DNA from: Brevundimonas sp. PAMC22021
GTDB lineage: Bacteria; Pseudomonadota; Alphaproteobacteria; Caulobacterales; Caulobacteraceae
Direction: 5' to 3'
DNA: 64,000 nt
Assembly: GCF_019443405.1 (NCBI RefSeq)
Contig: NZ_CP080376.1
Coordinates: forward strand, 1 to 64,000
Part shown: positions 38,928 to 60,056 of the stretch, piece after piece
Layout: every line of letters begins with the position of its first letter
Position numbering within the stretch: position 1 is the first letter of the stretch
Position numbers and translations under genes: made by a program
The notes under the pieces: generated by a model
What the model was told of the DNA's origin: nothing
Databases searched by the model: none
The model's input: only the letters and a program-made list of their open reading frames with translations

Positions 38928-40289
38928 ATGACCTCCTCATCCTCCGCGACCACGATCGGCATCGACTTCGGCACCACGAACACCGTGATCGCCGTGACCG
39001 GACCAGACGGCGAAGTCGAGGTGCTGCGCCTCGCCGCGCCCGAAGGGGAGCTCGCCGCCTTCCGCTCCGCTCTGAGTTTCCAGCTCCATCCAGGTGAGGA
39101 CGGCCGGACACCCGAGCGTGTGGTGCAAGCCGGTCCATGGGCTATCGAGGCCTATGCCGAGGATCCGCTGGAGACCCGCTTCATCCAGTCCTTCAAGACC
39201 TTCGCCGCCAGCGCCGCCTTTACGGAAACGGTGATCGACAACAGGCGCTACAAGTTCGAGGATCTGCTCTCGGCCTTCCTCCTCAGGCTCCGCCATCATG
39301 CCGGGGCAGCGATGGACGCTCTGCCGCCGCGCGTCATTGTTGGCCGTCCGGTAACCTTCGCCGGCGGTTCCCCTGATCCTGACCTGGCGCTTAGCCGTTA
39401 TGAGGCCGCCTTCCGCCGGCTGGGCTTCAACGACATCCGCTATGCCTATGAGCCGGTTGGCGCGGCCTTCTTCTTCGCTCGAACCCTGAAGACAGCCGCG
39501 ACGGTGTTGGTGGCCGACTTCGGCGGGGGCACGAGCGACTTCTCCGTGGTTCGGTTCGAGCCGTCTTCCGAAGGATTGAAATCGACGCCGCTGGCCCGTT
39601 CCGGGGTCGGCGTGGCGGGAGACGCGTTCGACTACCGGATCATCGACCAGGTGGTCTCGCCGCAGTTGGGCAAGGGCGGCGACCATCGCAGCTTCGACAG
39701 GGTCCTGCCCATACCTCAACGCTACTACGCCGCCTTCGCCCGGTGGGATCAACTCGCCCTGCTGCGGAATTCCCGCGACATGCGCGACATCCGGGCGCTC
39801 GCCCGGAGTGCGCTGGAGCCGGACAAGATCGAGCGGCTGATCGAGGTTCTCGACGACAATCATGGCCATGCCCTCTACCAGGCGGTCTCCCGACTGAAGT
39901 TCGATCTGTCGCGCGACGAGGTTGCGAGCTTCTCCTTTGTCGCGGGCTCGGTCCGTATCGAGCGGTCGGTCAAGCGGTCCGAATTCGAGGCCTGGATCGC
40001 TCCGGAGCTCGCCGCCATCCAGACCGCCGTGGACGAGGCGATCCGACGGTCAGGCTTGGAGCCCAGCCAGATCGACCGCGTTTTCCTGACGGGCGGCACC
40101 TCCTTTGTCCCCGCGGTCCGCGAGATCTTTCATCGGCGTTTCGATCCTGCCCGGGTCGAGACCGGAGGCGAGTTCGAGTCCATAGCCTCGGGACTGGCTC
40201 TGATTGGTCGCGAAGCGGATATAGACCTGTGGAGCAAGCGCTCCTCGTCTGGCGAGGCGGCCCAAGCCGCGGCTACTGCGGGCCGTTGA
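38928..40289 (+). CDS. Hsp70 family protein (YegD/DnaK-like ATPase, no substrate domain)
   Basis: A 453-residue protein with an actin-fold ATPase: phosphate-1 motif IGIDFGTTNTVIAV at residue 9, phosphate-2 motif ADFGGGTSDFSVVRF near 196, and adenosine motif FLTGGTSFVPAVREIF near 390. It stops soon after the nucleotide-binding domain, like the YegD group, so it lacks the peptide-binding domain of DnaK. ATG at 38928 gives MTSSSSATTIGIDFG. The last about 160 codons are duplicated at 59041-59520. The gene runs towards a lipoprotein gene on the other strand. Confidence 0.9.
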   Translation: MTSSSSATTIGIDFGTTNTVIAVTGPDGEVEVLRLAAPEGELAAFRSALSFQLHPGEDGRTPERVVQAGPWAIEAYAEDPLETRFIQSFKTFAASAAFTETVIDNRRYKFEDLLSAFLLRLRHHAGAAMDALPPRVIVGRPVTFAGGSPDPDLALSRYEAAFRRLGFNDIRYAYEPVGAAFFFARTLKTAATVLVADFGGGTSDFSVVRFEPSSEGLKSTPLARSGVGVAGDAFDYRIIDQVVSPQLGKGGDHRSFDRVLPIPQRYYAAFARWDQLALLRNSRDMRDIRALARSALEPDKIERLIEVLDDNHGHALYQAVSRLKFDLSRDEVASFSFVAGSVRIERSVKRSEFEAWIAPELAAIQTAVDEAIRRSGLEPSQIDRVFLTGGTSFVPAVREIFHRRFDPARVETGGEFESIASGLALIGREADIDLWSKRSSSGEAAQAAATAGR

Positions 40290-40834
40290 TGGGGGCGGTC
40301 AGGGCAGGGTGTCGCAACCGAGGAGCGCGCCGCCTCCAGGGCCAAGGTCTCGACTCCACGTCTGGCGCGTGTGGACCTTTCGAAGCGACCTTCCTCGTCC
40401 GTCTGGTCGGCAGTTCTTCAGCACGCGGCAAAGCTCGCGACCGGGTCAGCCGTCCTCGGTCGCGCCATCCGCCACACCCACGCACCGCTGCACCGCCGCG
40501 CCGTTCGCGCCTACCTGCGTTCGTGGGGCGATAGAGCTGACCGTCCGCCCGTCGTCGGCGTAGGTCGCCAGGAACTGACACCCGGTCGCGAGATCGGTCA
40601 GCACGAACACGCCGGGCTGGTCGGTCGGCGTCCGCGCCAGCTGGGCGCCAGCGATGGAGCGAAGCGCACCAGCGGGATCCTGGACCGCCTGCTGGATCTG
40701 GGCGCCATGTTGGTTCGCCAGCTCGACCGTCCGCCTCGTGCTGGCCACCGTCTCCTCCACCTCCCGAAGGGCGGAGGTGTCGATCGGGTCGCATGCGCCG
40801 AGCAGCAGGGCGGAGGCGGCGAGGGCGAGCATCA
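39810..40834 (+). repeat. Long direct repeat, left copy (about 1.02 kb)
   Basis: Nearly identical to 59041-60056 in the same orientation. I see three base differences plus a 9-base segment present here and absent in the other copy. It covers the 3' third of the Hsp70 gene and almost all of a lipoprotein gene. Weak similarity extends back to about 39793 (GGGCGCT and CCCGGAG shared). The two copies bracket about 18.2 kb. Confidence 0.92.
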
Positions 40835-40835
40835 T
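40446..40835 (-). CDS. Putative lipoprotein, left copy (5' end altered by the repeat junction)
   Basis: A 129-residue protein with lipobox LLLGAC close to the N-terminus, then a helix (LREVEETVASTRRTVELANQ) and a small domain with Cys in LATGCQFLATYADDGRTV and VQRCVGVAD. The right copy starts MKSVMLAL with a basic residue; here the repeat ends just before, and the start becomes MMLAL with no basic residue, so export may be poor. It also has three extra residues (NGA) against the other copy. Function unknown. Confidence 0.6.
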   Translation of the reverse strand: MMLALAASALLLGACDPIDTSALREVEETVASTRRTVELANQHGAQIQQAVQDPAGALRSIAGAQLARTPTDQPGVFVLTDLATGCQFLATYADDGRTVSSIAPRTQVGANGAAVQRCVGVADGATEDG

Positions 40836-40836
40836 C

Positions 40837-41357
40837 TGAGCCCCGAGCTAGCGATCGAGGTCAAAGAAGTCTTCTTCCTCCGTTACCTCGCCGTAGACGC
40901 GACATTGGCGGACGATGTACTCGAAAGAGCCTCACCGGAAGCCAACGAGTGGGTGGGCTTTCGGGCTCTCAACCGCGTACAGCGCGGGAAGTACGCTCAC
41001 TGCCTTCAGGCACATGGGGTGATGGACGGGCGAGATTATGCCGCTTGCCCAGATACGCTCTACCTAGGCCTGTTCGACAAGCGCGCCGCTGCTCTGAAAA
41101 GCAGCAAGGGCCTCTCAAAGAGCGCCAGTCTGCGGGACAATCTCTCAGCGGATGAGCTGGCTTTCGTGGCCTCGGGTGAGACCTTGGCGCGCGAACGCAT
41201 CGACGAGGAAGGTGCAGATGGTGGCGAGGCCTGCCGTATCGCAACGCGGCGATCCGTTCGTAATCTACGACGTGGCATGGAGATGGATCGCAATGATCGG
41301 AGGGGCCGGACGCCTCCTCCGGCAAATGAGAACCTAAAGCCGGACACCGCCGCTTGA
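40837..41357 (+). pseudogene. 5'-truncated phage-type (BRO/DinD-like) protein remnant
   Basis: Directly after the repeat an open frame encodes VKEVFFLRYLAVDATLADDV, then LFDKRAAALKSSKGLSKSAS, RDNLSADELAFVASGETLAR and a stop at 41357. The spacing of LF-x-K-x-A, S-L-R-D and E-L-x-x-V-x-x-x-E-x-L-A resembles the C-terminal part of BRO/DinD-type phage-related proteins. No start codon or binding site precedes it, and the frame only continues upstream as antisense of the lipoprotein gene, so its N-terminus was probably lost when the repeat junction formed. Family assignment is weak. Confidence 0.4.
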
Positions 41358-41409
41358 AGTTCCAGCCCCGGTCTCACGGCCGGGGCCCACCCTCACTATC
41401 TAAGGGAAG

Positions 41410-41706
41410 CTATAGGTTCATCCCCACCGCCACCGCCACGGCGATCACCGCCGCGATGACGACCACCAGCCCGACAATCACTGCGGCGCCGGCTTTGAAC
41501 TGCGCCTTCTGGGACGCTCGGTTGCGTGCCTCGTCCAGGTACCAGAGCCCCGGCTGAGCCTCAACAATTGCCTTGCGCTTTGACAGCTCCCTCACGGCGT
41601 AGCTGGCCAGCCTCTTGGACAGCGGCGCCCCAGCCTCCCTGAGGTGCTTCTTCACCTCCTCCTGCTGCTGCATGAGGAGGATGATCGTGGTGGTGGCGGC
41701 GCTCAT
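41410..41706 (-). CDS. Small membrane-anchored protein of unknown function
   Basis: A 98-residue protein with a soluble helical N-terminal part (MQQQEEVKKHLREAGAPLSK) and a strongly hydrophobic C-terminal helix (AAVIVGLVVVIAAVIAVAVA), giving a tail-anchored topology. No known family. It is in a run of small minus-strand genes at 41.4-43.7 kb that are probably accessory. Confidence 0.5.
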   Translation of the reverse strand: MSAATTTIILLMQQQEEVKKHLREAGAPLSKRLASYAVRELSKRKAIVEAQPGLWYLDEARNRASQKAQFKAGAAVIVGLVVVIAAVIAVAVAVGMNL

Positions 41707-41790
41707 TCGCCGGGCCTTCTGAGGGTCTCTCGTCTGGACGTGAGCCAGGCAGCAGTCAGCGACTTTCCTGATGCCGGAAGCTATCCAGTC

Positions 41791-43536: not shown

Positions 43537-43650
43537 TCAGAACAGCGCCGCAACCCAGCCTGCGAGACCTACAAGCCCGGCAAGGCCCCACACCCGTAAC
43601 GCACGCTCGCCCTTATGGCGGCGAAGGCGGCGGGCAATGGCAGTCGGCAT
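43537..43650 (-). CDS. 37-residue membrane peptide
   Basis: [20 protein letters not shown] followed by [17 protein letters not shown]: a basic N-terminus and one hydrophobic helix. AGGAGG lies five bases upstream of the ATG, a stronger ribosome binding site than most genes here. The next gene, with a similarly strong site, starts 57 bp downstream. It could be a small regulator, a toxin-like peptide or a phage remnant. Confidence 0.5.
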
Positions 43651-43701
43651 AACGCCCTCCTGAACAGCCCCCCGGCCGAGCGCATGACGCCCCCGGCGTG
43701 G

Positions 43702-43881
43702 TTACCGGTAGGTTAAACGCGAGCGTTGTTCTGTCAACCGACCTTCGCGGCTGTACCGCTGCCGCCGTAGGCCTTCCCGCAGGCGCGCGGTGTAGGCGTC
43801 GCAAAGTCGCTCTGAGAGCGCGTCGATCCACTTGCGCATCAGCGCCAAGCGCCCGGCCTGCTGAGCCGGTTCCGCCGTCAT
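43702..43881 (-). CDS. Small basic hypothetical protein
   Basis: A 59-residue frame from an ATG at 43881 ([20 protein letters not shown], then basic sequence). No clear ribosome binding site. The alternative frame over the same bases continues the SulP remnant. Low support. Confidence 0.25.
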
Positions 43882-44014
43882 CCACAACATCCACAATCTC
43901 GGAAGTGGTCTGGTCAAAGTGCTTGAGGTTCGGCTCCGTCTCCCTGGAGCTTACCGCCGCCAAGCGGCTAGAGCAGATGCGCGCGCTCGGCTGACATGTC
44001 CCGCAGGTGTTCCG

Positions 44015-44257
44015 CCGGACCATCAGCAACGCCGTCGCCCCGCTGGCGGCCGAGATCATCGCGGGGCGGCCGCCGACAAAGGCTATGGTCATCGCAATGA
44101 TGAAGCTGGCGTAGAGGCCGACCGCTGGATCGACCCCGGCGATGTTGGAATAGGCGATGGCCTCCGGGATCAAGACCAAGGCGACGACGGTGGCGGCCAG
44201 CAGGTCACGGCGTGGGTTAGCGAGCCACTGCTGGCGCGCGGAAGCGATGAGGGACAC
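44015..44257 (-). pseudogene. Truncated SulP-type anion permease (N-terminal fragment)
   Basis: The frame reads [53 protein letters not shown] and [12 protein letters not shown], the first about 80 residues of SulP transporters. Similarity then stops abruptly near 44015, where a full gene would need about 400 more residues. It is therefore a remnant of a deletion or rearrangement. Confidence 0.75.
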
Positions 44258-44407
44258 GGGATCCAGTCTGTCGGTTGGAACGGCTCGCGCGCGGCGGTGC
44301 CTCGTTCCTGTTTCCCGAGGGATCGGCGCCCAGGGTAGCCACCCGTTGCCGGGTCCTGATGACAAATGTGCAGATGCAGCAAACTGGCCGCTGGGGCGAC
44401 CTCTGGC

Positions 44408-44437
44408 AATGTCCGCTATGGGTGGAAAGCGGACATT
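44408..44437. repeat. Perfect interspersed palindrome, GGGTGG-loop type
   Basis: Perfect 10-base arms AATGTCCGCT and AGCGGACATT around the loop ATGGGTGGAA. It lies 12 bp downstream of the serine hydrolase stop and could also act as a transcription terminator hairpin, though no T run follows. Decayed relatives occur near 46086-46118 and 48288-48320. Confidence 0.75.
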
Positions 44438-44448
44438 AGCTTTGGGGT

Positions 44449-45915
44449 TTACTTGATGTTCGTGGTTCCGATTGACGCAAGCGCGGTTCTCGCGCTCTGG
44501 CTGTCGGGGTCCAGTCGAAGCGCTGCTTCATAACTGTGCTTGGCGTCCTGCTGTCGTCCGACGGCGAGATAGGCTTCGCCAAGGCTGTCATGAACGTTCG
44601 ACGACTGCGGATGGGATGTGGCATTCCATTCGAAGACTAGGACTGCAGGATCCCTGAACCCTTTCCTCAGCAAGCTGTAGCCTAAACTGTTCAGCGCACT
44701 CTCACTGAGATCGTAGGCATCGGGGCCGGCGGCGACCGATATTTCATAGGCCGCCTGCATGCCAGTCAGGTCATTGCGTGCCGCGAGAGGCGTAATCAGG
44801 TCAGCCAAAAGACGCTTTGGGACAATCGTTTGCTCGCCATGGACGACCGAGAATAGGGCTCGCGCGAGCTCGAGTGAGGTGATGCCCTGCCAAAAGTTGC
44901 TCATGACAACGACGACGGTCCCATCATCGGCACGAACAAAGATTGTCTGGTAACCCGGGATGCTGCCGGTGTGGGTTTGCACGCTCATCTTCGCGCCGCC
45001 TGAGGCGGACCATTCTTCAATGCCCCAGCCCAGTCCGTAGCCGTTGCCGCGATCGGTGAACATTTGCGACCTAAGGGTTTGGGGCAGCAACTGGTCTCCG
45101 TTGAGTGCGCGGCTGAAGGCGAGCAAATCGTCCGCGTTAGAGTAGGCCGCCGCGGCGGCGTAGCTTACTGTAGGATCAACGATTATCGGGCGGATCATTC
45201 CGCCTGCGTCTGATCGCGTGTAGCCATTGACGAGCCGAGGCACCACGGTCGATCCGTCGAAGACGCCGCTGTGCGTCATGCCCGCTGGGATCAGCACCCG
45301 CTGCGTCAGCGCTTCAGTGTACGGCTGCCGCGTGACCTTCTCGACGATTAACCCGAGAAGGTAGAAGCCGTTGTTGTTGTAGCGCCACTTCCCTAGAGGG
45401 TCGATGATCTCGGGAGGAATCCAGGTCTTGGCGAAGACATCCGGCGTGAAACTCTGTCGCGCAGACACGCGCCAGAAGGGATCATTGTAGTTGGCTGGCA
45501 AATCTTTGATGCCGGACGTGTGTGAAAGTAGCTGCTGGACGGTTACGGATGCCGCGGGCGTCCCAGCGTAGAGGTCCGGCAGATATTCGCCCAGAGTTCC
45601 GTCCAGACTGAGCAGGCCGTCCTTCACGAGCGACAGGACCAGGACGGCAGTCAGAGGCTTGGTCAGAGATCCTACCCGGAAGACGTCCTGTCGCTGGAGC
45701 GGGGTATCAAGCTCCAGTGACGACTCGCCATAGGCTTCGTTCAGGACCACTCCCTGTGCATTCGCGACGAGGACGACGCCGTTGAAGCTTCGGTTACGCG
45801 CAAAGGCGGCTGTCGTGTCATGGAGTCGTGCTTCGACGTGAATGGAATCGACCGCCCAAGCACAGGCGGGAGCCACAGCTAAAGCGAGTGAGAGGAGGAT
45901 AGTCGGGATGCGCAT
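44449..45915 (-). CDS. Serine hydrolase (beta-lactamase/peptidase S12-like) with TPR tail
   Basis: A 488-residue secreted protein: signal peptide to about residue 21 ([11 protein letters not shown]), active-site SLTK (about 83), YNN (about 180) and HTG (about 321), then from about residue 400 a TPR-like section ([32 protein letters not shown]). SxxK-YxN-HxG enzymes act as D-aminopeptidases, esterases or class C relatives; TPR tails are common in the esterase-like group. Monocistronic, with a palindrome right after the stop. Confidence 0.88.
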
Positions 45916-46085
45916 GGTCTATTCTGAGCCACCCGGCTCAGCTTCGAGCAAGTTAACAATCTGACAGCTGGATGGGTGGCGCCCTTACGTCCTTGAGACT
46001 GCGCCATATGACCAGCGCCTGCGTCGCCGCTAAGGGACCTGTGCCGGGTGGATCTCAGGGGAATGTCTGCAACGGGTCGTGAGGC

Positions 46086-46161: not shown

Positions 46162-48183
46162 CTAGGACGTCGCCACGAGGCTCAATAGGCTGGTGGCGAG
46201 TTCTGAGTTCCGGAAAGGCTTCGTGAGCCGCGGCAGGTCTGCAGCCAGACCTTCGGCCTCGGCATAGCCGGATATGATCAACACTCGCAGGGCAGGTCTG
46301 AGGCGGCGCGCCTCCTGTGCAAGGTCCGTACCGTTCATGCCTGGCATCAGGTGGTCGGTGATCAATACGTCAGGAGCCATGCCGGTCGACATCAAGTGCA
46401 GCGCCTGCTCAGCCGAAGCCGCTTCTACCACCTCGAATCCGAGGTCAATCAACATGTCCGCGGTGCTCATGCGCACCAGATCTTCATCGTCCACTAGGAG
46501 CGCCGTGCCGCGCGCGACCCGATCTACCGGCGCCGTTGCGGCGGGCTCCTCATTGTGGAGGACGACAGCATCACTGATGGGTAGGAAGAGCTCGACCCTA
46601 GCGCCGTCTCCGGGTGCGCTCTCGATTAGCATTCCGCCACCGAGCTGAGCTGCGAGGCCGTGCACCATTGAGAGACCCAGGCCGGTGCCCTTGCCGATGC
46701 CCTTGGTCGAGAAGAAGGGCTCAATGGCCCGCTGGAGAGTCGCCTCGTCCATGCCAGCGCCGGTGTCTATGACGGAAACGCGGACGTACCGACCCGGCGG
46801 CAGATTGGTCCTGTGTCCACGGCGAATGGTCTCGCATCGCGCCGAAACAGTAAGAACGCCCCCTTCCGGCATGGCGTCGCGCGCATTCACAGCCAGGTTC
46901 AAGAGCGCCATCTCGAGCTGGTTGCGGTCGGCCTTGGCTGGCGGCAGGTCCGCACCGACGTCAAGCCGGATTTGAATGCTTGGCCCAAGGGTTGATCCAA
47001 TCAGACCAGCCATTCCGTCGATCAGAGCTGCGACATCGACGGCGGTCGGCTGCAAGGGCTGGCGGCGAGCAAACGCAAGCAGTCGCTGGACCAACGTCTT
47101 TGCTCGCTCGGCCGATTGCAGCGCGCCATCGATCAAGCGCCGCTCGCGTTCGCTGCCGACCTCGCGACGCACGAGCATATCCAGCGAGCCAATAATTGGC
47201 GTGAGTAGGTTGTTGAAGTCATGCGCGACCCCGCCCGTGAGGCTGCCCATCGCCTCCATCTTTTGGCTTTGGCGGAGCGCTTCCTGAGCCTCGGCGAGCT
47301 GCGCCTGTTCCCGCAGCCGCTGCGTTACGTCTGTCACGAATTGGTAGGTACCCGTCAAATCCCCACTCGCGTTCCTCAAGGGACGGAACTTCACTTCGTA
47401 GTACGGGCGGGTGCGGCCAAGATCGCCATAGTCTTCAATAAACGTGACCTCCTCGCCTGCCAGTCCACGACCCCAGCCCGCGCGCACCTGCGCCTGATGT
47501 TCGGGCTGGTTAGCGAGCAGCTCCAACATGTTGTCGCCGACCTTAGGCCGCACGCCGTAGATCCGCTCGAACTCGTCGGCGTTAGCCTTGTTGAGAGCGA
47601 GGATGGCGTAATCGAGAGACGCCGCCATGATCATCACGTCGGTCGTTTCGACGAGGCTCATCAGCAGCTCGCGCTCGTCTGACAGTCGGTGTTCGGCAGC
47701 CGTCCTATCTGTGGTGTCGAGCGCAGTGAGGAAGATGCCCTCGACTTGACCAGTCTCGCCCCGGATCGGCGCGAAGCTATAGTACCAGAAGCTCTCTACG
47801 AGACCGGAGCCGCGCTCCATCATGAGGCGCTCGTTTTCGGCGACCACGCCTTCGCCAGTATCAAGCACCTGCTGTGCCGACGCCGTAAGCGCCTGCCACA
47901 TCGTCGGCCAGATCTCAGCCATTGTTCGCCCTAGAGCCCACGGGTGACGCGCGTCGAGGAAGGGCCGGTAGGCGTCGTTGTAAAGGAGCCGGAACTGCGG
48001 ACCCCAGTAAATCGCGGTAACCGCTTTGGAGTTGAGGCACGTCGACAGCGCGGAACGCAGGGCCTGCGGCCACGTCTCAGGCCGACCAAGTGGAGAGCCC
48101 GACCAGTCGTGGGCGCGCAACAGGGAGCCCACTTCGCCGCCACCAGTCAGGAAATCTAAGGCCCTTGGGTTAGCACTGGACAC
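46162..48183 (-). CDS. Hybrid sensor histidine kinase (PAS-PAS-HisKA-HATPase-REC)
   Basis: A 673-residue soluble kinase with no membrane helix. PAS-like domains at about 30-160 (IYWGPQFRLLYNDAYRPFL) and 170-290 (YAILALNKANADEFERIYG), HisKA with GGVAHDFNNLLTPIIGSLDM (His about 325), ATPase domain (LLNLAVNARDAMPEGG; GKGTGLGLSMVHGLAAQLGG) and a C-terminal receiver (LLVDDEDLVR; phospho-Asp in VLITDHLMPGMNG). The closely similar gene upstream has the same second half. Cytoplasmic hybrid kinases of this type usually pass phosphate to a separate regulator, which is not found here. Confidence 0.9.
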   Translation of the reverse strand: MSSANPRALDFLTGGGEVGSLLRAHDWSGSPLGRPETWPQALRSALSTCLNSKAVTAIYWGPQFRLLYNDAYRPFLDARHPWALGRTMAEIWPTMWQALTASAQQVLDTGEGVVAENERLMMERGSGLVESFWYYSFAPIRGETGQVEGIFLTALDTTDRTAAEHRLSDERELLMSLVETTDVMIMAASLDYAILALNKANADEFERIYGVRPKVGDNMLELLANQPEHQAQVRAGWGRGLAGEEVTFIEDYGDLGRTRPYYEVKFRPLRNASGDLTGTYQFVTDVTQRLREQAQLAEAQEALRQSQKMEAMGSLTGGVAHDFNNLLTPIIGSLDMLVRREVGSERERRLIDGALQSAERAKTLVQRLLAFARRQPLQPTAVDVAALIDGMAGLIGSTLGPSIQIRLDVGADLPPAKADRNQLEMALLNLAVNARDAMPEGGVLTVSARCETIRRGHRTNLPPGRYVRVSVIDTGAGMDEATLQRAIEPFFSTKGIGKGTGLGLSMVHGLAAQLGGGMLIESAPGDGARVELFLPISDAVVLHNEEPAATAPVDRVARGTALLVDDEDLVRMSTADMLIDLGFEVVEAASAEQALHLMSTGMAPDVLITDHLMPGMNGTDLAQEARRLRPALRVLIISGYAEAEGLAADLPRLTKPFRNSELATSLLSLVATS

Positions 48184-48406: not shown

Positions 48407-51019
48407 CTAGTCGCTAGCGCTTCCCGATGTCTCTCGGACTCGTTTGAGGGCCTCGGTGGCGACGCTCAGGCCGCTCGGAATCAAGGTCAGCGCGGCAATT
48501 GCCTGCGCGAGTTCTATTTGCCGAAAGGGCTTCAAGAGGCGCGGCAGGTCGGGCGCAATGCCGTCCACTTCAGCGTAGCCGGATATTATCAAGGCTTGGA
48601 GCGGGCGGGTCGCCACGACTTGGCGCACGAGATCCGCGCCGCTCAGGCCCGGCATCAGGTGGTCCGTGACGAGCAGGTCGGGCATGAGACCACCTTCCAA
48701 CAGACGCCACGCTTCCTCGGCGTTGTGGGCCTCGACCACAGCATAGCCAAGGTCCGCAAGCATGTCGGCTGTAGAGCTGCGCACGAGGTCCTCGTCGTCA
48801 ACCACGAGCGCCGTGCCTGATCGCGCCGGCCCTTGGAAGGGCTCGGCCGATTCAAGCGCATCAGCGACAGTCTCCGTTGTGGGCAGCCACAGCTCGACCT
48901 TCGTGCCGAGCCCGGGAGTGCTCAATACGACAAGCGCCCCGCCGAGCTGCGCCGCCAGGCCATGCACCATGGAGAGGCCCAGCCCAGTGCCCTTGCCGAT
49001 CCCCTTGGTGCTGAAGAACGGCTCAACAGCACGCTTCAGCGTTTCATCATCCATGCCTACGCCCGTGTCGGCGACGGAGAGACGCACGTAGCGGCCCGGA
49101 GCCAGCGGACCGGGTTGCTCCTCGCCTATCCGTTCCGCAGCCGCCGAGATTGTGAGGCGCCCGCCATCCGGCATGGCGTCGCGCGCGTTCACGGCCAGGT
49201 TCAGGATCGCCATCTCGACCTGGTTGGCGTCAGCGAAGGCACGCGGCAGGTCGGCGTCCAGGTCGAACTCCAGCTGAATGGTGGGACCTGACGTGCTGGC
49301 GACGAGATCTTCCATGCCGGCCAAGAGCGCCGCGACATCCACGGCCTGGGCCTGCAGCGGTTGGCGACGCGCGAAAGCCAGAAGGCGTTGCACCAGGGTT
49401 TTAGCGCGATCAGCGGACTGGAGGGCCCCTTCGATCAGCCGCTGCTCGCGATCGCCGCCGACGCCCTTCCGCTGCAGCATGTCCAGCGATCCGACAATCG
49501 GCGTGAGCAGGTTGTTGAAGTCGTGAGCCACGCCGCCGGTTAGCTGACCCATCGCCTCCATCTTCTGCGAATGGCGCAGCGCCTCTTGCGATTCCGCCAG
49601 CAGCCGCTCCGCTTCGACATGCGCGGTGACCTCGATCGCGTGGTGAAATCCGCCGACGATTACCCCATCTGCATCACGCACGGGGCCGTGCGTGAGGTCC
49701 CAATGCAGCTTTGTGCGCGCGGGATCGCCGAACTGAACGCGCGTTGTGAAGGTCTCACCCGCGAGCGCTCGCTGCATCAGTTCCGTGATCTGCGGTTGCT
49801 CTTCCGGAATGAAGTAATCCGGAAAGCGCTGACCGATGTAAGACGGCGCGCCCTGCGTCTCGAAGAACTTCTGCGCATGGGGCGGGTTGAAGGCAGTGAT
49901 CCGCAGGTCGTGATCGAAAGCCACGATGGGCCCAGGGTTCGACTGCACGATGTTCTGGTGCAGGAGCAGTTCGGACGTCGCCTCGGCCACCCGCTTTTCG
50001 AGGGTGTCTTTCAGCTCCCGCAGTGTTCGCTCAGCTCGCGCCCTCTCGATCGCGGCCTTCAGGCGTTCTCCAACGGCTTGGGCGAGTGTTTCCTCCGCGG
50101 GTGTCCAATCACGCGGCGTGCAGCTCTGCACGGCCAACAGGCCCACCCACTGCTCCTCCTGGAACAGAACGACGTCGATGAATGCGCAGACCTCGCGCGC
50201 CTGCAGGCCTGTCCGGGCGCCCCCGCTAAGCCGCTCGTCAGACTGGACGTCGCGGACCACGACCGGCGCACCCGCGCGGTAGGCCCGGAGCAGGTCTGGC
50301 CCGAAGGACTCCAGGGAGTGTACGCCCACGATGGAAGCCACGCCATCGGCGTGATCCTGCTCCACGGTCATCCAGCCTGCCGTTGAGATGGTCGCGTAGA
50401 AGACGCGGCTCGCTCCCAATTCTGAACCCAGGGCCTTGGCGGCGAGCATCAATAGGGCGGACGGGTCGTCGAGCGCACGCAGCTCGTCCGATAGCGCATA
50501 CAGGAACGCGGCGTGGCGCTCGGCCTCCACGCGCTGGGTCGTCTCGCCCAGAATGCATATGACGCCTGCCGGATTGCCGGCCTCATCGAGAACGGGCGAA
50601 TAATCCAGGTCCAACCAGACCTGCTCAGGCCGGCCGTGCCGGAGCAGCGTGAGTTCTTGGTCGCGGTAGTGGAGCGCGCCGCCAGCCAGGCCGACTGCCA
50701 TGACGTTGTCGTTGAAGTCTGCAATCTCGGGCCAACCCTGTCGCACCTCGCTGCCGAGTAGGTCCGGATGGCGTCCACCAGCGAAATGAGAGTAGGCGTC
50801 GTTGTAGAGCATCACTCCCTTCTCGCTCCAAAGCATGACGATCGGTACGGGGGAACGGAGCAGGAGAGCAGTCGCCGTCTTCAGACACTGCGGCCAGTGA
50901 GCGATCGGTCCGAGCGCGGTTGCGGACCAATCTCTGGATGCGATCAGATCCCCGCAATCCGTACTTGCGCCGAGGAAGGCGGCCGAGACAGGAGCAAGTG
51001 CTGCGGCCGTGCCAGTCAT
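48407..51019 (-). CDS. Hybrid sensor histidine kinase (PAS-GAF-PAS-HisKA-HATPase-REC)
   Basis: An 870-residue soluble kinase. A PAS-like domain (about 30-155, MLWSEKGVMLYNDAYSHFAG), GAF domain (about 175-330, including VCAFIDVVLFQEEQWVGLLA), a PAS domain (about 355-475, VAFDHDLRITAFNPPHAQ), HisKA (GGVAHDFNNLLTPIVGSLDM, His about 510), ATPase domain (LNLAVNARDAMPDGG; GKGTGLGLSMVHGLAAQLGG) and receiver (LVVDDEDLVR; VTDHLMPGLSG). From HisKA on it is highly similar to the next gene, so the pair arose by duplication with sensor-domain exchange. Confidence 0.9.
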   Translation of the reverse strand: MTGTAAALAPVSAAFLGASTDCGDLIASRDWSATALGPIAHWPQCLKTATALLLRSPVPIVMLWSEKGVMLYNDAYSHFAGGRHPDLLGSEVRQGWPEIADFNDNVMAVGLAGGALHYRDQELTLLRHGRPEQVWLDLDYSPVLDEAGNPAGVICILGETTQRVEAERHAAFLYALSDELRALDDPSALLMLAAKALGSELGASRVFYATISTAGWMTVEQDHADGVASIVGVHSLESFGPDLLRAYRAGAPVVVRDVQSDERLSGGARTGLQAREVCAFIDVVLFQEEQWVGLLAVQSCTPRDWTPAEETLAQAVGERLKAAIERARAERTLRELKDTLEKRVAEATSELLLHQNIVQSNPGPIVAFDHDLRITAFNPPHAQKFFETQGAPSYIGQRFPDYFIPEEQPQITELMQRALAGETFTTRVQFGDPARTKLHWDLTHGPVRDADGVIVGGFHHAIEVTAHVEAERLLAESQEALRHSQKMEAMGQLTGGVAHDFNNLLTPIVGSLDMLQRKGVGGDREQRLIEGALQSADRAKTLVQRLLAFARRQPLQAQAVDVAALLAGMEDLVASTSGPTIQLEFDLDADLPRAFADANQVEMAILNLAVNARDAMPDGGRLTISAAAERIGEEQPGPLAPGRYVRLSVADTGVGMDDETLKRAVEPFFSTKGIGKGTGLGLSMVHGLAAQLGGALVVLSTPGLGTKVELWLPTTETVADALESAEPFQGPARSGTALVVDDEDLVRSSTADMLADLGYAVVEAHNAEEAWRLLEGGLMPDLLVTDHLMPGLSGADLVRQVVATRPLQALIISGYAEVDGIAPDLPRLLKPFRQIELAQAIAALTLIPSGLSVATEALKRVRETSGSASD

Positions 51020-51656
51020 CTAATCTCGGACTCGCTTTGGATGGGATTGCGGCGACGAGCCGTGCCAGTGGAAAAGTTGGCTACCCTACCGGATCATGCT
51101 CAGAACCGGAACCATGTACTGACTGAGTGAAATACCTTTCGGGGGGTGATCGGTTGTTGCCGCTGTCTCGGGGAGCGTTAGGGGCGCAGTTGCGTCGTGA
51201 GGTAAGGCCGCGCCAGCAGGCGAGGAACGCCAACTCAGAAGGCGAGGCAAGGACCTGACAAACGCGACAGGCAGGCACACTGACCGTTTGCCTGACCATC
51301 CACAAACGGGTCCGAGCTGCACCGAGTTCGATGCGCCGAATATCCGTTTACCGGCAAACAACCAGTGTTCGCTGTTGACGCGTAGGCGACGCAAACTCGA
51401 TTGCTGTCAGCGCCGTTCCACCACCTCCATCCGCATTGAAAGTGTAGTCGGAAAGCGGGAATTCGTCGCGAACAACCGCGCCACCTCCACTGCCGCTGAG
51501 GTGAGTGTCCATTCACGCTTCGCGAACGGTGGTCACGGTTACTGGCGAACCAAACAAGGGCGGCAACGCAGTCGATGTGGCGAGACGAAGAAGCGGCCGA
51601 CATCGTCAGGTGATCGGAGCCTGACCGTCGGGCTTCTCCCTCCCGAGGACGCCAAG
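51020..51656. other. 637-bp stretch without a supported gene
   Basis: Both strands have only short frames with unlikely composition. The bases are less GC-rich than the flanks in places, suggesting decayed or foreign DNA. The promoter for the gene at 51657 should lie near its right end. No tRNA or repeat recognised. Confidence 0.4.
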
Positions 51657-52082
51657 ATGATCCGCATCGCTTCCATCGCCGCCGCACTAACCCTGGTCAC
51701 CATGCCCGTTCTGGCTCAAGAGGCCGCCGCCTCGCACCTGAAGATCACGTTTGAGACAGGGGCGTCGACTGGGTCGGTTATGATCGCCCTGTTCGACAAC
51801 GAGAATGCGTTCAGCAACGGTGCGCCGGTCGCCAACGCCAAGCTCGACGTGGCAGCGGGCGAGAGCGACGCGGCGTTCGAGGGTCTGCCGACCGGTCGCT
51901 ACGCTTTCAAGGCTTTCCACGATGTCAACGGCAATGGGCGGATGGACACCAATCCGTTTGGCATGCCCGTCGAACCCTTCGCCTTCTCGAACAACGCGGT
52001 GGGCAACATGGGGCCGGCCAGCTGGGAGCGCGCCAGCTTCGATCTGGCGGGCGACACCGTCCAGACCGTCCGCATTCACTGA
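51657..52082 (+). CDS. DUF2141 family secreted protein
   Basis: A 141-residue protein with a signal peptide (IASIAAALTLVTMPVLAQE) and a beta-sandwich DUF2141 domain: VMIALFDNENAF, then FEGLPTGRYAFKAFHDVNGNGRMDTN and GMPVEPFAFSNNA. The D-V-N-G-N-G-x-x-D stretch resembles a calcium loop. DUF2141 genes often accompany carotenoid or isoprenoid-related genes; here a carotenoid oxygenase follows 25 bp later. ATG at 51657 has GAGGA eight bases upstream. Confidence 0.88.
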   Translation: MIRIASIAAALTLVTMPVLAQEAAASHLKITFETGASTGSVMIALFDNENAFSNGAPVANAKLDVAAGESDAAFEGLPTGRYAFKAFHDVNGNGRMDTNPFGMPVEPFAFSNNAVGNMGPASWERASFDLAGDTVQTVRIH

Positions 52083-52107
52083 TGTCACATCGCAGAAGAA
52101 ACGCCGT

Positions 52108-53589
52108 ATGCTTGCTTCACGCCGCAGTTTCCTAACCAGCGCCGCCGCTTTGTCGGCTGCCGTGATTACCCCTGAGACCGTGCGCGCCATGGCGGCGATG
52201 CAGGTCGCGGACCGCCACGGTCTCGCCGACTGGGCCCCGGCGACGGCCGATCTCGAGGCGGATGTCACGCGCCAAGCGATGCGTCGTGTCCATGGCCGCG
52301 CACCGGCGGCGCTGGAGGGCGTGCTGTTCCGCAACGGACCAGGCAAGTTTCGACGGCCGGGCGGAAGCGCGACGCACTGGTTCGATGGCGACGGCCTGAT
52401 GCGGGCCTTCCGCTTGAGGGACGGGCAGGCGACGATCGAGGCTCGTTTCGCGGACACGGCCAAACGACGTCACGAGAGCGAGTTGGGCGCAGTGGTGACG
52501 CCTGGGTTCGGCACGGTGGGAGACAGCCGGGCGGAAATCGCCTCGCCGGACGATGCGAACGCGGCCAACACCGCGGTCCTGCCGCTGGGGGAAACGGTCT
52601 GGGCCTTGTGGGAAGGCGGTTCGCCCCTGGCGATGGGCGCGGGGGACCTGAGCACACGAAACATCGTCACACTGCGGGACGATCTAAAAGGCATGCCGTT
52701 TCAGGCCCACCCCCGCTTTGATCCGGACGGCACGATCTGGAACATCGGTCTGGCCGGAGACCGTATGGTGGTGTGGCGACTGAACGCCAACGGCGGATTG
52801 CGCTCGGCCGAGGTCATACGCCTGCCGCGCGCCAGCTACATGCACGACTTCACGGCGTCGTCGCGACATCTGGTGATCGTGCTGCAGCCCTGGGTGTTCG
52901 AGCGCGACACGATGCCGTTCATGAACCGCTTCGCCTGGAAGCCCGAGATGGGCACGCAGGTGATGGCGATCGACAAGGCGGACCTGAGCCGGACGCGGAT
53001 CTACGACCTGCCGGCCTTCAGCTACTTCCATCTGGGCGACGCCTGGGAAGATGCGGATGGAACGATCCGGTTCGATGTCGCGGCGGGCAAGGACGTGCGG
53101 TTCGCCTTGGACGGGGCTCGCGTTCTTGTTCAGCAGCATGGGACGGTTCCGGCAGAGCCGGCGGCGTTGTCCTTGGTGACCCTGCACGCGGACGGACGGG
53201 CGGAGATGGTGTCCTCAGGTGTGACGGCGGAGTTTCCGAAGGCCAACCCGCGCGTCGCCGGTCTAACGCGCCGCTTCACCTCCCATGTGGCGGGTGAGAC
53301 CGGCGGGCGGCCGTTGCCCACCGGTTTGGCGGTTCAGGACTGGAAGACCGGTCGCTCCGACGGCTTCTCGTTCGGCGAGAGCCAGATCATGGAAGAGGCC
53401 GTCTGGGTCCCGAAGCCCGGCCGATCGGGAGAACTGGACGCCTGGCTGGTCGCGCCGTCGATTAATCTGGCGGAGGGCGCGACCGAACTGCACGTGTTCG
53501 AGGCCGGGAGGGTTGCGGATGGACCTGTGGTCAGCTGGCGGGCCGACATCGCTCTTCCGGCGGGTTTCCATGGGGCTTGGGCGGTGTAA
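52108..53589 (+). CDS. Carotenoid oxygenase family protein (carotenoid cleavage dioxygenase-like)
   Basis: A 493-residue protein that starts with a Tat-type signal (SRRSFLTSAAALSAAV), so it is probably exported folded. The four iron-binding histidines of the family are visible, in QAHPRFD (about 198), YMHDFTAS (about 246), YFHLGDA (about 311) and at the very end GFHGAWAV (about 489). The N-terminal RNGPGKF and HWFDGDGLMRAF motifs are typical. These enzymes use Fe(II) and O2 to cleave a double bond in carotenoids or stilbenoids; the substrate is not predictable. It is in an operon with the DUF2141 gene. Confidence 0.92.
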   Translation: MLASRRSFLTSAAALSAAVITPETVRAMAAMQVADRHGLADWAPATADLEADVTRQAMRRVHGRAPAALEGVLFRNGPGKFRRPGGSATHWFDGDGLMRAFRLRDGQATIEARFADTAKRRHESELGAVVTPGFGTVGDSRAEIASPDDANAANTAVLPLGETVWALWEGGSPLAMGAGDLSTRNIVTLRDDLKGMPFQAHPRFDPDGTIWNIGLAGDRMVVWRLNANGGLRSAEVIRLPRASYMHDFTASSRHLVIVLQPWVFERDTMPFMNRFAWKPEMGTQVMAIDKADLSRTRIYDLPAFSYFHLGDAWEDADGTIRFDVAAGKDVRFALDGARVLVQQHGTVPAEPAALSLVTLHADGRAEMVSSGVTAEFPKANPRVAGLTRRFTSHVAGETGGRPLPTGLAVQDWKTGRSDGFSFGESQIMEEAVWVPKPGRSGELDAWLVAPSINLAEGATELHVFEAGRVADGPVVSWRADIALPAGFHGAWAV

Positions 53590-53592
53590 TCC

Positions 53593-54369
53593 TCAGTACC
53601 AGCCAGCGTCCCTGAGCGCGCGCGCGTACCTGCGGCTGACCGGAGCCTCAACGCCGCCCGCAAGGGTCAGGGTTGCGCGGCCGTCACCGCGTTTGACATC
53701 GCGGACGGCGCCGCGGGCGACCCACCAGCCGCGATGGGTCTGGGCGCCTTCGAGACCCTCGAGCTCGGCCAGGGCGTCAGACAGGCGCATCAGAATGAGG
53801 TCGGATCCGCGATCTGTGTGGATGCGTAGATAATGATCTTCGCTCTCGACGGCGTGGATGGCGGCGCCTTTCAGCTTAGGGGGCAGACGATCGGGGAACC
53901 GAGCATTGGAGGCGCCGGCTGGGGCGGCGTGGGTCTGGACCGGCTGCCGCTGAAGGAAGACGTTGAGGACGCTCACGACGGCTGTCACCACCAGAACTGG
54001 TGAAATGAAATGCACTAGGCGAGCGATCGCCGGATGCCTGCCCTGCTCGAACCAGAAGACGGTGTAGGCCCAAACAACCACAGTCAGGGGCAAGCCGATG
54101 GCGAGGGTCAGGGCGAATGCGGCGAGCCAAGGCTGACGGTCAAGATCAATCCAGCGCTCCAGCTGCCGCGAGCAGACGTGACCCCAGACCGCACCGGCGA
54201 GCATCAGCGGCAGCCAGTAGATCAGACGCTGACCAAACCCTGCACCCGTCATGCCGAAAGCACCAGTGAAGGCGAGCATCCCGCCGGCCGACAGTGCGAT
54301 CGCGGCTCCCTTGAGCAGGCTGCGGTCGATCGAGAAGGAGAGATGCTGCGAGGTTGATGGGTCAGTCAT
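53593..54369 (-). CDS. LytTR-family transcriptional regulator with membrane domain
   Basis: A 258-residue protein. Four hydrophobic helices (AIALSAGGMLAFTGAFGM; LIYWLPLMLAGAVWG; AAFALTLAIGLPLTVVVWAY; LVVTAVVSVLNVFL) are followed by a linker and a C-terminal LytTR DNA-binding domain (IHAVESEDHYLRIHTDRGSD, HRGWWVARGAV, APVSRRYARALRDAGWY). Membrane-bound LytTR proteins of this kind sense an unknown signal directly. It is convergent with the carotenoid oxygenase gene, and a paralogue lies at 57846-58613. Confidence 0.9.
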   Translation of the reverse strand: MTDPSTSQHLSFSIDRSLLKGAAIALSAGGMLAFTGAFGMTGAGFGQRLIYWLPLMLAGAVWGHVCSRQLERWIDLDRQPWLAAFALTLAIGLPLTVVVWAYTVFWFEQGRHPAIARLVHFISPVLVVTAVVSVLNVFLQRQPVQTHAAPAGASNARFPDRLPPKLKGAAIHAVESEDHYLRIHTDRGSDLILMRLSDALAELEGLEGAQTHRGWWVARGAVRDVKRGDGRATLTLAGGVEAPVSRRYARALRDAGWY

Positions 54370-56329: not shown

Positions 56330-56730
56330 TCAGCGGCGGAGGTGCAGAAGAGGATACGCTCGATCTTGGCCGTTGAGGTCGGACCGCCCGACAACCTGGA
56401 AACCCATCAGTGTGTAAAATCGGAGAGCCTGAAAATTCGCTTCGTTCACGTCTGTCGTGCTTACTTGGTGTTCGCTAATCGCGCTTTGAAGCAACGCATT
56501 CCCGACGCCTTTCCCGTGGTCGTCAGGGTCTATGAAAAGCGCTTCCAGATGAGCACCGCCCCTTGACATGAACCCACGGGTCGGTCCGCAGTCGTCAGGA
56601 AGTCGTGGGTGGCTTCCATCGCGCAACTCCAGATTTCGACGAGGCAATTGACCTCATCCGAACGGTTTGGCGAATGCTTGGGTTCATGAGGCCCGAACAG
56701 CGCAGCGGCTGCTTTCGGCACAGGCTCCAA
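56330..56730 (-). pseudogene. GNAT acetyltransferase with internal deletion and frameshift
   Basis: The 3' part encodes ALFIDPDDHGKGVGNALLQS and VNEANFQALRFYTLMGFQVV followed by YPLLHL, the acetyl-CoA-binding half of a YjaB-like GNAT enzyme. In another frame the 5' part encodes CLVEIWSCAMEATHDFLTTA, the usual N-terminal helix. The about 50-60 residues normally between these halves are missing and the frames differ, so the gene is inactive. Confidence 0.7.
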
Positions 56731-56765: not shown

Positions 56766-57695
56766 TCAGACAGCGTCGCGGAAGAACCGCACCACCTCTT
56801 GATTGAACTCCAGGTGAAACGCGGTCCGATCGAAGCTGGGATGGGATTCACAAAGAACTGGGATCGCCACCCTAAGCGCCTCGGAGCAGGGCGGCAGGAA
56901 GTCAAAATGTCCGGCGCCGGCGACCCGATGATATTCCGCCGCTCGGCCTAGGCGGTCGCGGATCGGTTCGACGTTGAAGGGCGCCGGCAGCACCATGTCG
57001 CCGTCGGCCTGCCACAGCTGCACCGGAATAGTCACTCTGGCGAGGCTCTCGTCAGTGAAGGCAAGGCCAAGGCCCGGCGCGGCAATGACGGCCGCCCTGA
57101 TGCGAGGATCATGACCGACGGCCTTCCAGGTCGTCGGATCGATGGGCGATCGCCTGATCAGCTGACAGGCGAAAACTTCCGGCTCCTGTTCGCAGTGGCG
57201 ACGGACCAAGGCGAGATCGCTGACGCCACCGACAAGCGCGGTGACCGTGAAGCCGCCCGCCGAATACCCGAATGCGCCGATGCGTGCTGAATCGACGCCC
57301 ATGGGTCCCGACCAATGTTTGGTCATGTGGTCGATCAGCAGGCTGATGTGGCCCGCCCGATCCGTCAGCTGGGTCTGACGGCTGTCATCGCGCCAATTAT
57401 CGCCGGGGTGGGTCAGGGCGGCGACCACAAAGCCGGCCGCCGCCAGCGCCTTTGCGGTGTCGTGGTGTCCTTGGGAATGGCCGCCGTTGCCGTGAGAGAT
57501 CACGATCAGCGGCCTCGGTCCCGCGAACTCTGTGCCGTCCGGCAGCCAGACGGCGACTTCGATCTCTCCGCCTGCCGGTTCGGCGAAACGGAAGATCTGG
57601 TCCGCCTCCTGCGCAAGGACGGTGTCGGGCGAACCTGAGGCAGCGGCTAGGGTCAGGGCGGCGATTGGAGCGATAAAGGCGCGAAGAAGAGACAT
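56766..57695 (-). CDS. Secreted alpha/beta hydrolase (dienelactone-hydrolase/PAF-acetylhydrolase-like)
   Basis: A 309-residue protein. The signal peptide ends near VLAQE. The fold shows LIVISHGNGGHSQGH (oxyanion region), nucleophile elbow GYSAGGFT (Ser about residue 152), Asp in LWQADGDMVLP and catalytic His in GAGHFDFLPPC. It matches the periplasmic predicted dienelactone hydrolase group; the substrate is unknown. ATG at 57695 is chosen because it starts the signal peptide. It is divergent from the LytTR gene 150 bp away. Confidence 0.85.
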   Translation of the reverse strand: MSLLRAFIAPIAALTLAAASGSPDTVLAQEADQIFRFAEPAGGEIEVAVWLPDGTEFAGPRPLIVISHGNGGHSQGHHDTAKALAAAGFVVAALTHPGDNWRDDSRQTQLTDRAGHISLLIDHMTKHWSGPMGVDSARIGAFGYSAGGFTVTALVGGVSDLALVRRHCEQEPEVFACQLIRRSPIDPTTWKAVGHDPRIRAAVIAAPGLGLAFTDESLARVTIPVQLWQADGDMVLPAPFNVEPIRDRLGRAAEYHRVAGAGHFDFLPPCSEALRVAIPVLCESHPSFDRTAFHLEFNQEVVRFFRDAV

Positions 57696-57845
57696 GGGCG
57701 TAGACCAGTGATCGGGGATACGGCCCAATCCGCGATCAACGGGGCTTCCGCCAGGGCGCCTTCGTGACTGGGCGAACGGGTTCGCAGCCCGGCCACTGGT
57801 TAGGGCGACCGCTGGAGCTGTATCGTCAGGTCAAAAGGGGATTCG

Positions 57846-58613
57846 ATGACCGACGCGTCAGCCAAGGCAAGACAATGGGCGATCGAACTGGCAGCCTGTC
57901 TGGCGACCGGCGCCCTGCTCGGCGCGATCGGCCCGTTCGGCAGTTTCCTCAATGACGTCCTTATCATCAGGGTCGCCTACTGGGTGATCGTCTTCCTGTC
58001 CTGCGGCCTGGCTGTGGGCCTGACGATCCGGATCGTGACGCCGCGCGCCCGAAAGGCCGGCGTTCCGATCTGGGCTTGGGCGCCGGCCGTGGTTCTGGCG
58101 ATCGCCTTGCCCTTAGCCGCGTTCACCCGCCTGGTCGCGGTGGCCTTCTGGGCGGGGATCGGCGATCGTGTGAGCGTGGCGGACTGGTATGGTCAGACAC
58201 TGCTGATGTGCCTGGTCTACTTGACGCTGCACGCTGTCGTCGCTCGCAGCACCGAGCGGCCTGAGCCACGACTCGACAAATCAGGGTCCGGTGATCCGCG
58301 CATCCTGCGACATCTGCCCCTGCGCCTCGGCAGCGACCTTCTGTGTCTGTCGATGGAGGATCATTACGTCCGCCTGCACACGGGCGGGGGCTCGGTGCTG
58401 GTGCTGATGTCGCTGAGCCAGGCCCTTGCCGAACTGGGCGACATCGATGGCCTTCAGGTGCATCGATCATGGTGGGTCGCGCGTGACGCCGTGACCGGAG
58501 TGATCAAGGATGGGCGCAACCTTCGCCTTCGACTCAGAGGCGGTTTGGAAGCGCCGGTGTCTCGAGCGAGTGTGGCCCGCCTGCGCCAAGCGGGCTGGAT
58601 CGAAACCAGATAG
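57846..58613 (+). CDS. LytTR-family transcriptional regulator with membrane domain
   Basis: A 255-residue paralogue of the protein at 53593-54369: four hydrophobic helices (WAIELAACLATGALLGAIG; WVIVFLSCGLAVGLTIRIV; AWAPAVVLAIALPLAAF; LLMCLVYLTLHAVV) then a LytTR domain (CLSMEDHYVRLHTGGGSVLV, HRSWWVARDAV, EAPVSRASVARLRQAGW). It probably regulates the divergent hydrolase gene (inference from layout). Confidence 0.9.
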   Translation: MTDASAKARQWAIELAACLATGALLGAIGPFGSFLNDVLIIRVAYWVIVFLSCGLAVGLTIRIVTPRARKAGVPIWAWAPAVVLAIALPLAAFTRLVAVAFWAGIGDRVSVADWYGQTLLMCLVYLTLHAVVARSTERPEPRLDKSGSGDPRILRHLPLRLGSDLLCLSMEDHYVRLHTGGGSVLVLMSLSQALAELGDIDGLQVHRSWWVARDAVTGVIKDGRNLRLRLRGGLEAPVSRASVARLRQAGWIETR

Positions 58614-58709
58614 CGCGACGCGGTGTGTAGTCCGACCTGAACTCAGAGTAGGCGGTGTCTCTCTACGCGGGAGAAAACGATCTAGCGTCCACTCCTTGGA
58701 GGGTGTGGC

Positions 58710-58736
58710 AATGACCTCTCTGGCGCTTATGCGTCC
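58710..58736 (+). repeat. Interspersed palindromic element, degenerate copy
   Basis: AATGACCTCTCTGGCGCTTA precedes the decayed DUF4287 copy in the same relative place as the element at 27042-27060, so the two loci probably share a common ancestor including this flank. Confidence 0.4.
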
Positions 58737-58767
58737 TTCCTCACCAGAGCCGACGGCTGCTACTTCA

Positions 58768-58945
58768 GGCCGTCACTCGCCGTAGTGTGCGCCACCAAGG
58801 CGCTAGCGGTGACCATGGCCTAGGTCTTGGTCGTTCTTGAGAAGTGTCACTAGTTCCATGTGCTTGGCATTGTATTCGGCGCGGATGATCTATTGCCAAT
58901 GAGAGATCGGTCGGCCGTACTTCTTCTCAATCGTCGCCAGGTGCT
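58768..58945 (-). pseudogene. Decayed DUF4287 gene copy
   Basis: Reads IEKKYGRPISHWQ, a TAG stop, then IIRAEYNAKHMELVTLLKND and GHGH, followed by another stop: clearly the DUF4287 domain of 27108-27320 with at least two nonsense codons. The 5' end is missing; instead the sequence runs into the right long repeat at 59041. Confidence 0.8.
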
Positions 58946-59040
58946 GCAGCGAGGCTAGCACGAAAGACCAGTCTGCGACCCTGGGCAGATGTCCGCTCAG
59001 GGCGAAGAGCCGCATCGTACAGTGGGCGCTTTCCCGGAGC

Positions 59041-59520
59041 GCGCTGGAGCCGGACAAGATCGAGCGGCTGATCGAGGTTCTCGACGACAATCATGGCCAT
59101 GCCCTCTACCAGGCGGTCTCCCGACTGAAGTTCGATCTGTCGCGCGACGAGGTTGCGAGCTTCTCCTTTGTCGCGGGCTCGGTCCGTATCGAGCGGTCGG
59201 TCAAGCGGTCCGAATTCGAGGCCTGGATCGCTCCGGAGCTCGCCGCCATCCAGACCGCCGTGGACGAGGCGATCCGACGGTCAGGCTTGGAGCCCAGCCA
59301 GATCGACCGCGTTTTCCTGACGGGCGGCACCTCCTTTGTCCCCGCGGTCCGCGAGATCTTTCATCGGCGTTTCGATCCTGCCCGGGTCGAGACCGGAGGC
59401 GAGTTCGAGTCCATAGCCTCGGGACTGGCTCTGATTGGTCGCGAAGCGGATATAGACCTGTGGAGCAAGCGCTCCTCGTCTGGCGAGGCGGCCCAAGCCG
59501 CGGCTACTGCGGGCCGTTGA
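59041..59520 (+). pseudogene. Hsp70-family gene fragment (3' third) in the right long repeat
   Basis: The last about 160 codons of the Hsp70 gene at 38928-40289, identical at protein level from ALEPDKIERL to the stop, including FLTGGTSFVPAVREIF. The ATPase phosphate-binding motifs are absent and the sequence before 59041 is unrelated, so it cannot be a functional chaperone. Confidence 0.9.
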
Positions 59521-60056
59521 TGGGGGCGGTCAGGGCAGGGTGTCGCAACCGAGGAGCGCGCCGCCTCCAGGGCCAAGGTCTCGACTCCACGTCTGGCGCG
59601 TGTGGACCTTTCGAAGCGACCTTCCTCGTCCGTCTGGTCGGCAGTTCTTCAGCACGCGGCAAAGCTCGCGACCGGGTCAGCCGTCCTCGGTCGCGCCATC
59701 CGCCACACCCACGCACCGCTGCACCGCCGCGCCTACCTGCGTTCGTGGGGCGATAGAGCTGACCGTCCGCCCGTCGTCGGCGTAGGTCGCCAGGAACTGA
59801 CACCCGGTCGCGAGATCGGTCAGCACGAACACGCCGGGCTGGTCGGTCGGCGTCCGCGCCAGCTGGGCGCCAGCGATGGAGCGAAGCGCACCAGCGGGAT
59901 CCTGGACCGCCTGCTGGATCTGGGCGCCATGTTGGTTCGCCAGCTCGACCGTCCGCCTCGTGCTAGCCACCGTCTCCTCCACCTCCCGAAGGGCGGAGGT
60001 GTCGATCGGGTCGCACGCGCCCAGCAGCAGGGCGGAGGCGGCGAGGGCGAGCATCA
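59041..60056 (+). repeat. Long direct repeat, right copy (about 1.02 kb)
   Basis: Matches 39810-40834 in the same orientation, with three base changes and a 9-base deletion between short GCGCC repeats near 59730. It ends inside the first codons of the lipoprotein gene, which continues naturally here, whereas in the left copy it is joined to foreign sequence. Confidence 0.92.

Follow-up and report, generated by a model that had tools for sequence, protein, structure and literature searches.

How did an 18.2-kb segment of the Brevundimonas sp. PAMC22021 chromosome come to lie between two near-identical copies of part of an Hsp70-lipoprotein locus? We addressed this question in a window of 64,000 bases, positions 1-64000 of a single 2,915,592-base contig (completeness 99.94%). 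We refer to the direct-repeat pair as R and to the segment between its copies, 18,184 bases, as S. Our data confirm that the repeats are real and support Hsp70-lipoprotein-exporter as the likely local ancestral order in this lineage; how S was added is a question to which we give a tentative answer below. The repeats and the genes at their edges are as follows.

38928..40289, + strand: Hsp70-type chaperone gene, complete; scores under the cut-off of its closest NCBIfam model, PRK11678
39792..39809, + strand: 18 nucleotides left of the left core of R, matching the left flank of the right copy (59023-59040) at 14 of 18 positions
39810..40834, + strand, 1025 bp: left copy of R, made up of the 3' part of Hsp70, an intergenic stretch and most of the lipoprotein gene
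40446..40835, - strand: left copy of the lipoprotein gene, with a single Met in place of codons 1-4 and the lipobox retained
40836..41357, + strand: phage-type KilA-N gene lacking codons 1-111, a stump joined directly to the edge of R
59041..59520, + strand: 3' fragment of Hsp70 without the 5' part
59041..60056, + strand, 1016 bp: right copy of R, with a 9-bp in-frame deletion and substitutions at 59965, 60016 and 60022
59677..60066, - strand: right lipoprotein copy, apparently the native gene
60966..62656, - strand: right-flank two-gene exporter
62735-63232: DUF2975-like gene, clustered with the exporter

Comparison of the window with itself by BLASTN pairs 39793-40839 with 59024-60060 on the plus strand at 98.5% identity, and the core copies differ by three substitutions and one 9-bp gap, the deletion in the right copy. 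The near identity and common orientation described in the initial annotation are thus borne out. A genome-wide search with the left core returned the two copies of R and one 30-bp match among the 40 of 209 candidates scored. Megablast over 0.94 Mb of the genome, with overlaps between the stretches compared discounted, gave no other repeat pair of at least 500 bp and at least 90% identity, the next-best pair being 475 bp at 95.8%.

The genes at the edges of R are truncated in a complementary manner. Within R the lipoprotein gene is convergent with Hsp70, and R runs up to the first codons of the lipoprotein. The left copy has the complete Hsp70 gene and a disturbed lipoprotein start, and the right copy has an Hsp70 fragment and the putatively native start, as had been noted before. 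The lipoprotein N-termini read MMLALAAS... on the left and MKSVMLALAAS... on the right; the left start is a fusion to the phage-type gene in which codons 1-3 are gone and codon 4 becomes the start, so that the signal peptide loses its only lysine and retains the lipobox. The closest relative, P0001, which is metagenomic, reads MLAHLTIMKSVMLALAAS..., the same as the right copy, and its start MLAHLTIMKSVMLA agrees with the upstream reading of that copy. At the site of the right copy's three-residue deletion, two or three residues are kept in all 12 aligned relatives. Because P0001 matches the right copy and these relatives keep the residues, the right lipoprotein context looks native and its 9-bp deletion looks derived. 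The complementary truncations, together with the match to P0001, support the order Hsp70-lipoprotein-exporter before the event, as originally proposed.

The nearest Hsp70 relatives are Brevundimonas and Caulobacter records, and the three-gene exporter cluster is together in all 19 relative loci read, which were best matches. At the 35 Hsp70 loci compared (L084-L118, of 64 searched, L084-L147), no window neighbours are shared save paralogs at 35% identity or less. Hardly any Hsp70 neighbour of the Brevundimonas reference loci L085 and L086 recurs among the other loci, and several neighbours at the Caulobacter locus L097 do recur, one of them in 19 loci. Hsp70, lipoprotein and exporter of G034 lie on three different contigs, and the exporter neighbours of G083 are found here mostly at 741-749 and 782-786 kb.

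At the left joint, lipoprotein codon 4/5 runs directly into codon 112 of the KilA-N gene, end to end and with an overlap of about 1 nt. The open reading frame (ORF) following the left copy of R represents the 3' portion of a KilA-N/DdrC-like gene. This gene is matched in 12 of 131 genus genomes including this one, and besides this one only G022 matches strongly, at 59%. An intact 283-residue version is present on an IMG/VR viral contig (locus L236, 80%); in the 10,504 of 40,178 contig bases compared, no window sequence other than the KilA-N stump matches L236. At the left edge of R, the 14/18 match was equalled by 6 of 200,000 random pairs and may reflect old homology or microhomology at a joint. 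We also considered whether the left edge of the right copy is a diverged Hsp70 allele. Brevundimonas and Caulobacter rows of the alignment carry Asp-Ile-Arg at this position and Phenylobacterium rows carry Glu-Ile-Arg; the right copy has neither motif, and its edge is therefore more likely a joint.

All three substitutions fall within the final 92 bp of R (P = 0.0007 with that end specified and 0.0014 for either end, in a test picked post hoc), and reading from the alignment they are synonymous in the lipoprotein gene. Repeated exchange between the copies would leave substitutions clustered at an end; gene conversion may therefore hide the age of the event, and the identity of the copies need not date it. 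The pattern in R is one of few substitutions near one end only, with the 9-bp deletion inside the core.

Segment S contains two regulator/enzyme pairs known from other genomes of the genus, a beta-lactamase-fold gene and the phage-gene stump. Its further features are listed here.

43613..44365, - strand: ORF with the N-terminal stump of a SulP sulfate transporter
44309-44359: sul1 RNA leader, in front of the SulP stump
44449..45915, - strand: serine beta-lactamase-fold hydrolase with TPR
46162..48183, - strand: hybrid histidine kinase
48407..51019, - strand: hybrid histidine kinase, of which 48488-50722 has 80% DNA identity to G091
51288..52079, + strand: ORF with a DUF2141 domain at residues 160-258, preceding the oxygenase
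51805..53589, + strand: ORF for an RPE65-family carotenoid oxygenase (RPE65 domain from residue 160), the genome's only copy
53593..54369, - strand: LytTR regulator, convergent with the oxygenase
56330..56647, - strand: GNAT acetyltransferase fragment
56766..57728, - strand: alpha/beta hydrolase, paired divergently with the second LytTR gene
57846..58613, + strand: second LytTR regulator
58749..58931, - strand: probable remnant of DUF4287 (77% like 27097-27278), scoring below the Pfam cut-off by itself

We judged eleven ORFs in S to be apparently intact, covering 12,537 of its 18,184 bases. They encode the beta-lactamase-fold hydrolase with TPR, the two hybrid kinases, the RPE65-family oxygenase with its convergent LytTR regulator, a HAD hydrolase, the alpha/beta hydrolase with its divergent LytTR regulator, and small proteins of unknown function; the kinases, LytTR proteins and oxygenase named in the initial annotation are all present. 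Of the 25 (of 55) NCBIfam families listed for the beta-lactamase-fold gene, none was matched above its cut-off, and we therefore refrain from naming it a resistance gene. The two hybrid kinases lie side by side and are paralogs (46196-47302 versus 48507-49604, 68% DNA identity over 1.1 kb). The sul1 regulatory RNA has been left without its gene, SulP being only an N-terminal stump.

The carotenoid oxygenase bears on where S came from. It is found in 114 of the 131 genus genomes including this one (96 of the 110 good ones), at E up to 1e-80, and this genome's single copy is located in S. Because the genome's only copy of so widespread a gene lies there, S is at least partly genus-type chromosomal DNA rather than a plain foreign plasmid. 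For the same reason, the prediction that sister strains should lack the whole block is doubtful. The oxygenase-LytTR pair is kept in all 28 loci L056-L083, which were selected as best DNA matches, and its location varies in the genus, so that "displaced" is a relative term. Neighbours of the pair in G036 and G090 are unlike those in G068, G012 and G108; those of G036 are located here at 2458-2462 kb, and those of G012 are found here at 2572-2577 kb for one side and at 2811-2814 and 1373-1375 kb for the other. The neighbours of the hydrolase-LytTR pair of G122 are mostly at 1888-1900 kb here, where other genes occupy the place of the pair. In this genome, at G000:C1:1895171-1897509 (in L225), chemotaxis-receptor-like and MarR-like genes, named by eye, stand where G122, G027 and G021 carry this pair.

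Searching the genome with S returned, besides S itself, 13 matches among the 40 of 181 candidates scored, all shorter than 300 bp and at 89% identity or less, the best being 89% over 65 bp. Part of S may have a different history. The stretch 44409-46058, which holds the beta-lactamase-fold gene, has 90% DNA identity to G091 over 1.65 kb, which suggests that it was probably transferred; the G091 oxygenase has only 66% protein identity, and its well-conserved sucA has 90%. Single-gene trees disagree, and none proves S foreign. The oxygenase groups with G036 and G090 (99), the sucCD tree places this genome with G036 and G120 (90), and the sucA tree places it beside a clade of seven others (94). 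A claim of foreign origin by phylogeny was dropped, sucA being apparently discordant with the oxygenase and sucCD not. No LytTR gene at 60% coverage or more stands beside the oxygenase in the seven genomes of the sucA clade (about 2 kb examined in six of them). Rough mean identities of reciprocal best ORFs, with shadow ORFs included and standard errors of 1.4 to 2.3, are 73% for G114 (n = 41), 75% for G063 (n = 48), 74% for G036 (n = 26) and 65% for G137 (n = 36).

Pfam and PHROG scans of the submitted S ORFs, a set smaller than every possible ORF, revealed no integrase, transposase, relaxase, replication or transfer genes. When 39700-60200 was compared by megablast, 13 of 72,556 plasmid records matched, each over 1% of the query or less, and none of 50,697 phage records matched; on this basis we rejected a plasmid or phage origin of the whole block. 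A distant search with 59045-60100 gave one weak plasmid match (294 bp at 67.7%). In PHROG, the beta-lactamase-fold gene hits "minor tail protein with lysin activity" and the kinases hit families of unknown function, which we take as shared enzyme and kinase domains. S contains no prophage structural and lysogeny block in the comparisons above, the KilA-N stump alone matching L236, and it lacks the transposase-bearing insertion sequences of a composite transposon at its flanks, where R carries Hsp70 and lipoprotein sequence. The G+C content of S is 63.3% versus a mean of 67.8% for 60 background 6-kb windows, and the flanks are also below this mean (65.4% left, 65.5% right). We rejected composition as a sign of foreign origin: S is partly atypical, but 1-6000, 24001-30000 and other parts of the window are so too. 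A low-G+C stretch elsewhere in the window carries a protein with a HEPN/Toprim N-terminal domain (3253-4539), possibly a defence gene. Separately, L186 contains at 14098-18152 (G000 98098-102152) a long array of diverged repeats whose successive matches are offset by about 315 bp.

Given two direct homologous copies that bracket an insert, as Campbell integration leaves them, we tentatively favour a reading in which the 18.2-kb block entered the Hsp70-lipoprotein locus as a circle and by single crossover, with about 1 kb of homology anchoring the insertion. A fragment already carrying one copy of R would have closed into a circle, with two illegitimate joints predating the crossover; RecA would then have recombined the circle at the chromosomal R, giving A-R-S-R-B, where A and B are the flanks. 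The copies would thereafter perhaps have exchanged sequence, keeping the core near-identical, and renewed excision of a 19.2-kb circle would in principle be possible. A single crossover by a circular (ligated) fragment would be the simplest final step, and PMC3240628 reports such integration of circularised linear DNA in Escherichia coli. That S has no other genome match above 89% (40 of 181 candidates scored) is as expected if it arrived once. The end-to-end fusion at the left joint, the 14/18 homeology at the right one and the 90% identity to G091, which points to transfer of part of S, fit this reading too. Several points weigh against this reading. A circle bearing exactly this lineage's Hsp70-lipoprotein piece has to be assumed, both illegitimate joints must come before the crossover, and no replication or transfer gene was found among the scanned S ORFs. 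A foreign block would imply the loss of an earlier native oxygenase copy; the trees do not demonstrate foreign origin, since the oxygenase clusters with G036 and G090 and sucCD likewise puts this genome with G036 (and G120). Of the mechanism first suggested for this locus, integration of a circle by single crossover, the geometry and the E. coli precedent hold up, but duplication plus deletion gives the same footprint; we regard the mechanism as plausible but unproven and the implied foreign circle as weakened.

That footprint could arise within the chromosome if a larger tandem duplication or a replication template switch made the second copy of R and deletions left S between the remnants, a history we hold to be credible and only slightly less likely than the circle. 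It needs no incoming DNA, and it fits a block that holds the sole copy of a widespread oxygenase, a SulP stump without other DNA match in the genome search, a gene order unlike that of relatives, homeology of 14/18 at the right joint and scanned ORFs free of mobile-element machinery. It requires at least three events, however, and the 13 short matches include no relic of a second S. Alternatively, R may be an old duplication whose core was homogenised repeatedly by gene conversion, with no recent single-step insertion recorded. The three synonymous substitutions clustered at one end and the diverged 14/18 match at the left edge would suit this, but the copies differ by no more than three substitutions and an indel, this 9-bp deletion sits within the core, and the left-edge match may be joint microhomology; we consider it unlikely as a full account, although it is compatible with the other explanations as a later layer. 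Still less probable is a low-G+C accretion zone into which the lineage re-inserts its own genes from distant loci as circularised fragments, with R a still-reversible pair through which, by RecA recombination, cells would gain and lose a 19.2-kb circle bearing two hybrid kinases and two LytTR genes. An assembly duplication or misjoin is very improbable, since the copies differ by an indel and three substitutions and have different flanks on all four sides, within one 2.9-Mb contig at 99.94% completeness. We give the least credence of all to a genomic island driven by an integrase, or an integrated plasmid, for which R would be the attachment site. The direct repeats bounding S and its lowered G+C would fit, but R is 1 kb long and spans parts of two protein genes, integrase, relaxase and replication genes were absent from the scanned ORFs, the flanks are also low in G+C, and the window's only tRNA is at 29866-29951.

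Known systems resemble this locus in part, and our literature searches returned no title on it. Campbell-type integration shares the A-R-S-R-B geometry and the complementary truncations; this case differs in that no vector or plasmid functions were found and the contents are at least partly genus-type chromosomal genes, and the shared geometry does not by itself identify the mechanism. Loss of redundant parts after tandem duplication, as described for mitochondrial gene order, shares short direct repeats, genes truncated at the joints and the sole copy of a widespread gene, and differs in that no second-S relic was found here. Homology-facilitated illegitimate recombination, as presented in the accessible text of PMC3240628, also combines one homologous and one illegitimate joint; it generally inserts while deleting recipient DNA and is not said there to duplicate the anchor, and we rejected it as a candidate. 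Genomic islands with attachment repeats share direct repeats and somewhat low G+C, and differ in that no integrase was found here and the repeats are 1 kb and largely coding.

The rearrangement is of an ordinary kind, by an ordinary mechanism. It offers a clear case in nature of a rearrangement flanked by repeats where mobile-element machinery was not found, and it cautions that near-identical flanking repeats need not imply a recent or foreign insertion. Should the copies of R recombine measurably often, subpopulations could lose or amplify the carotenoid oxygenase, a genus-wide gene present here in a single copy, together with its LytTR partner.

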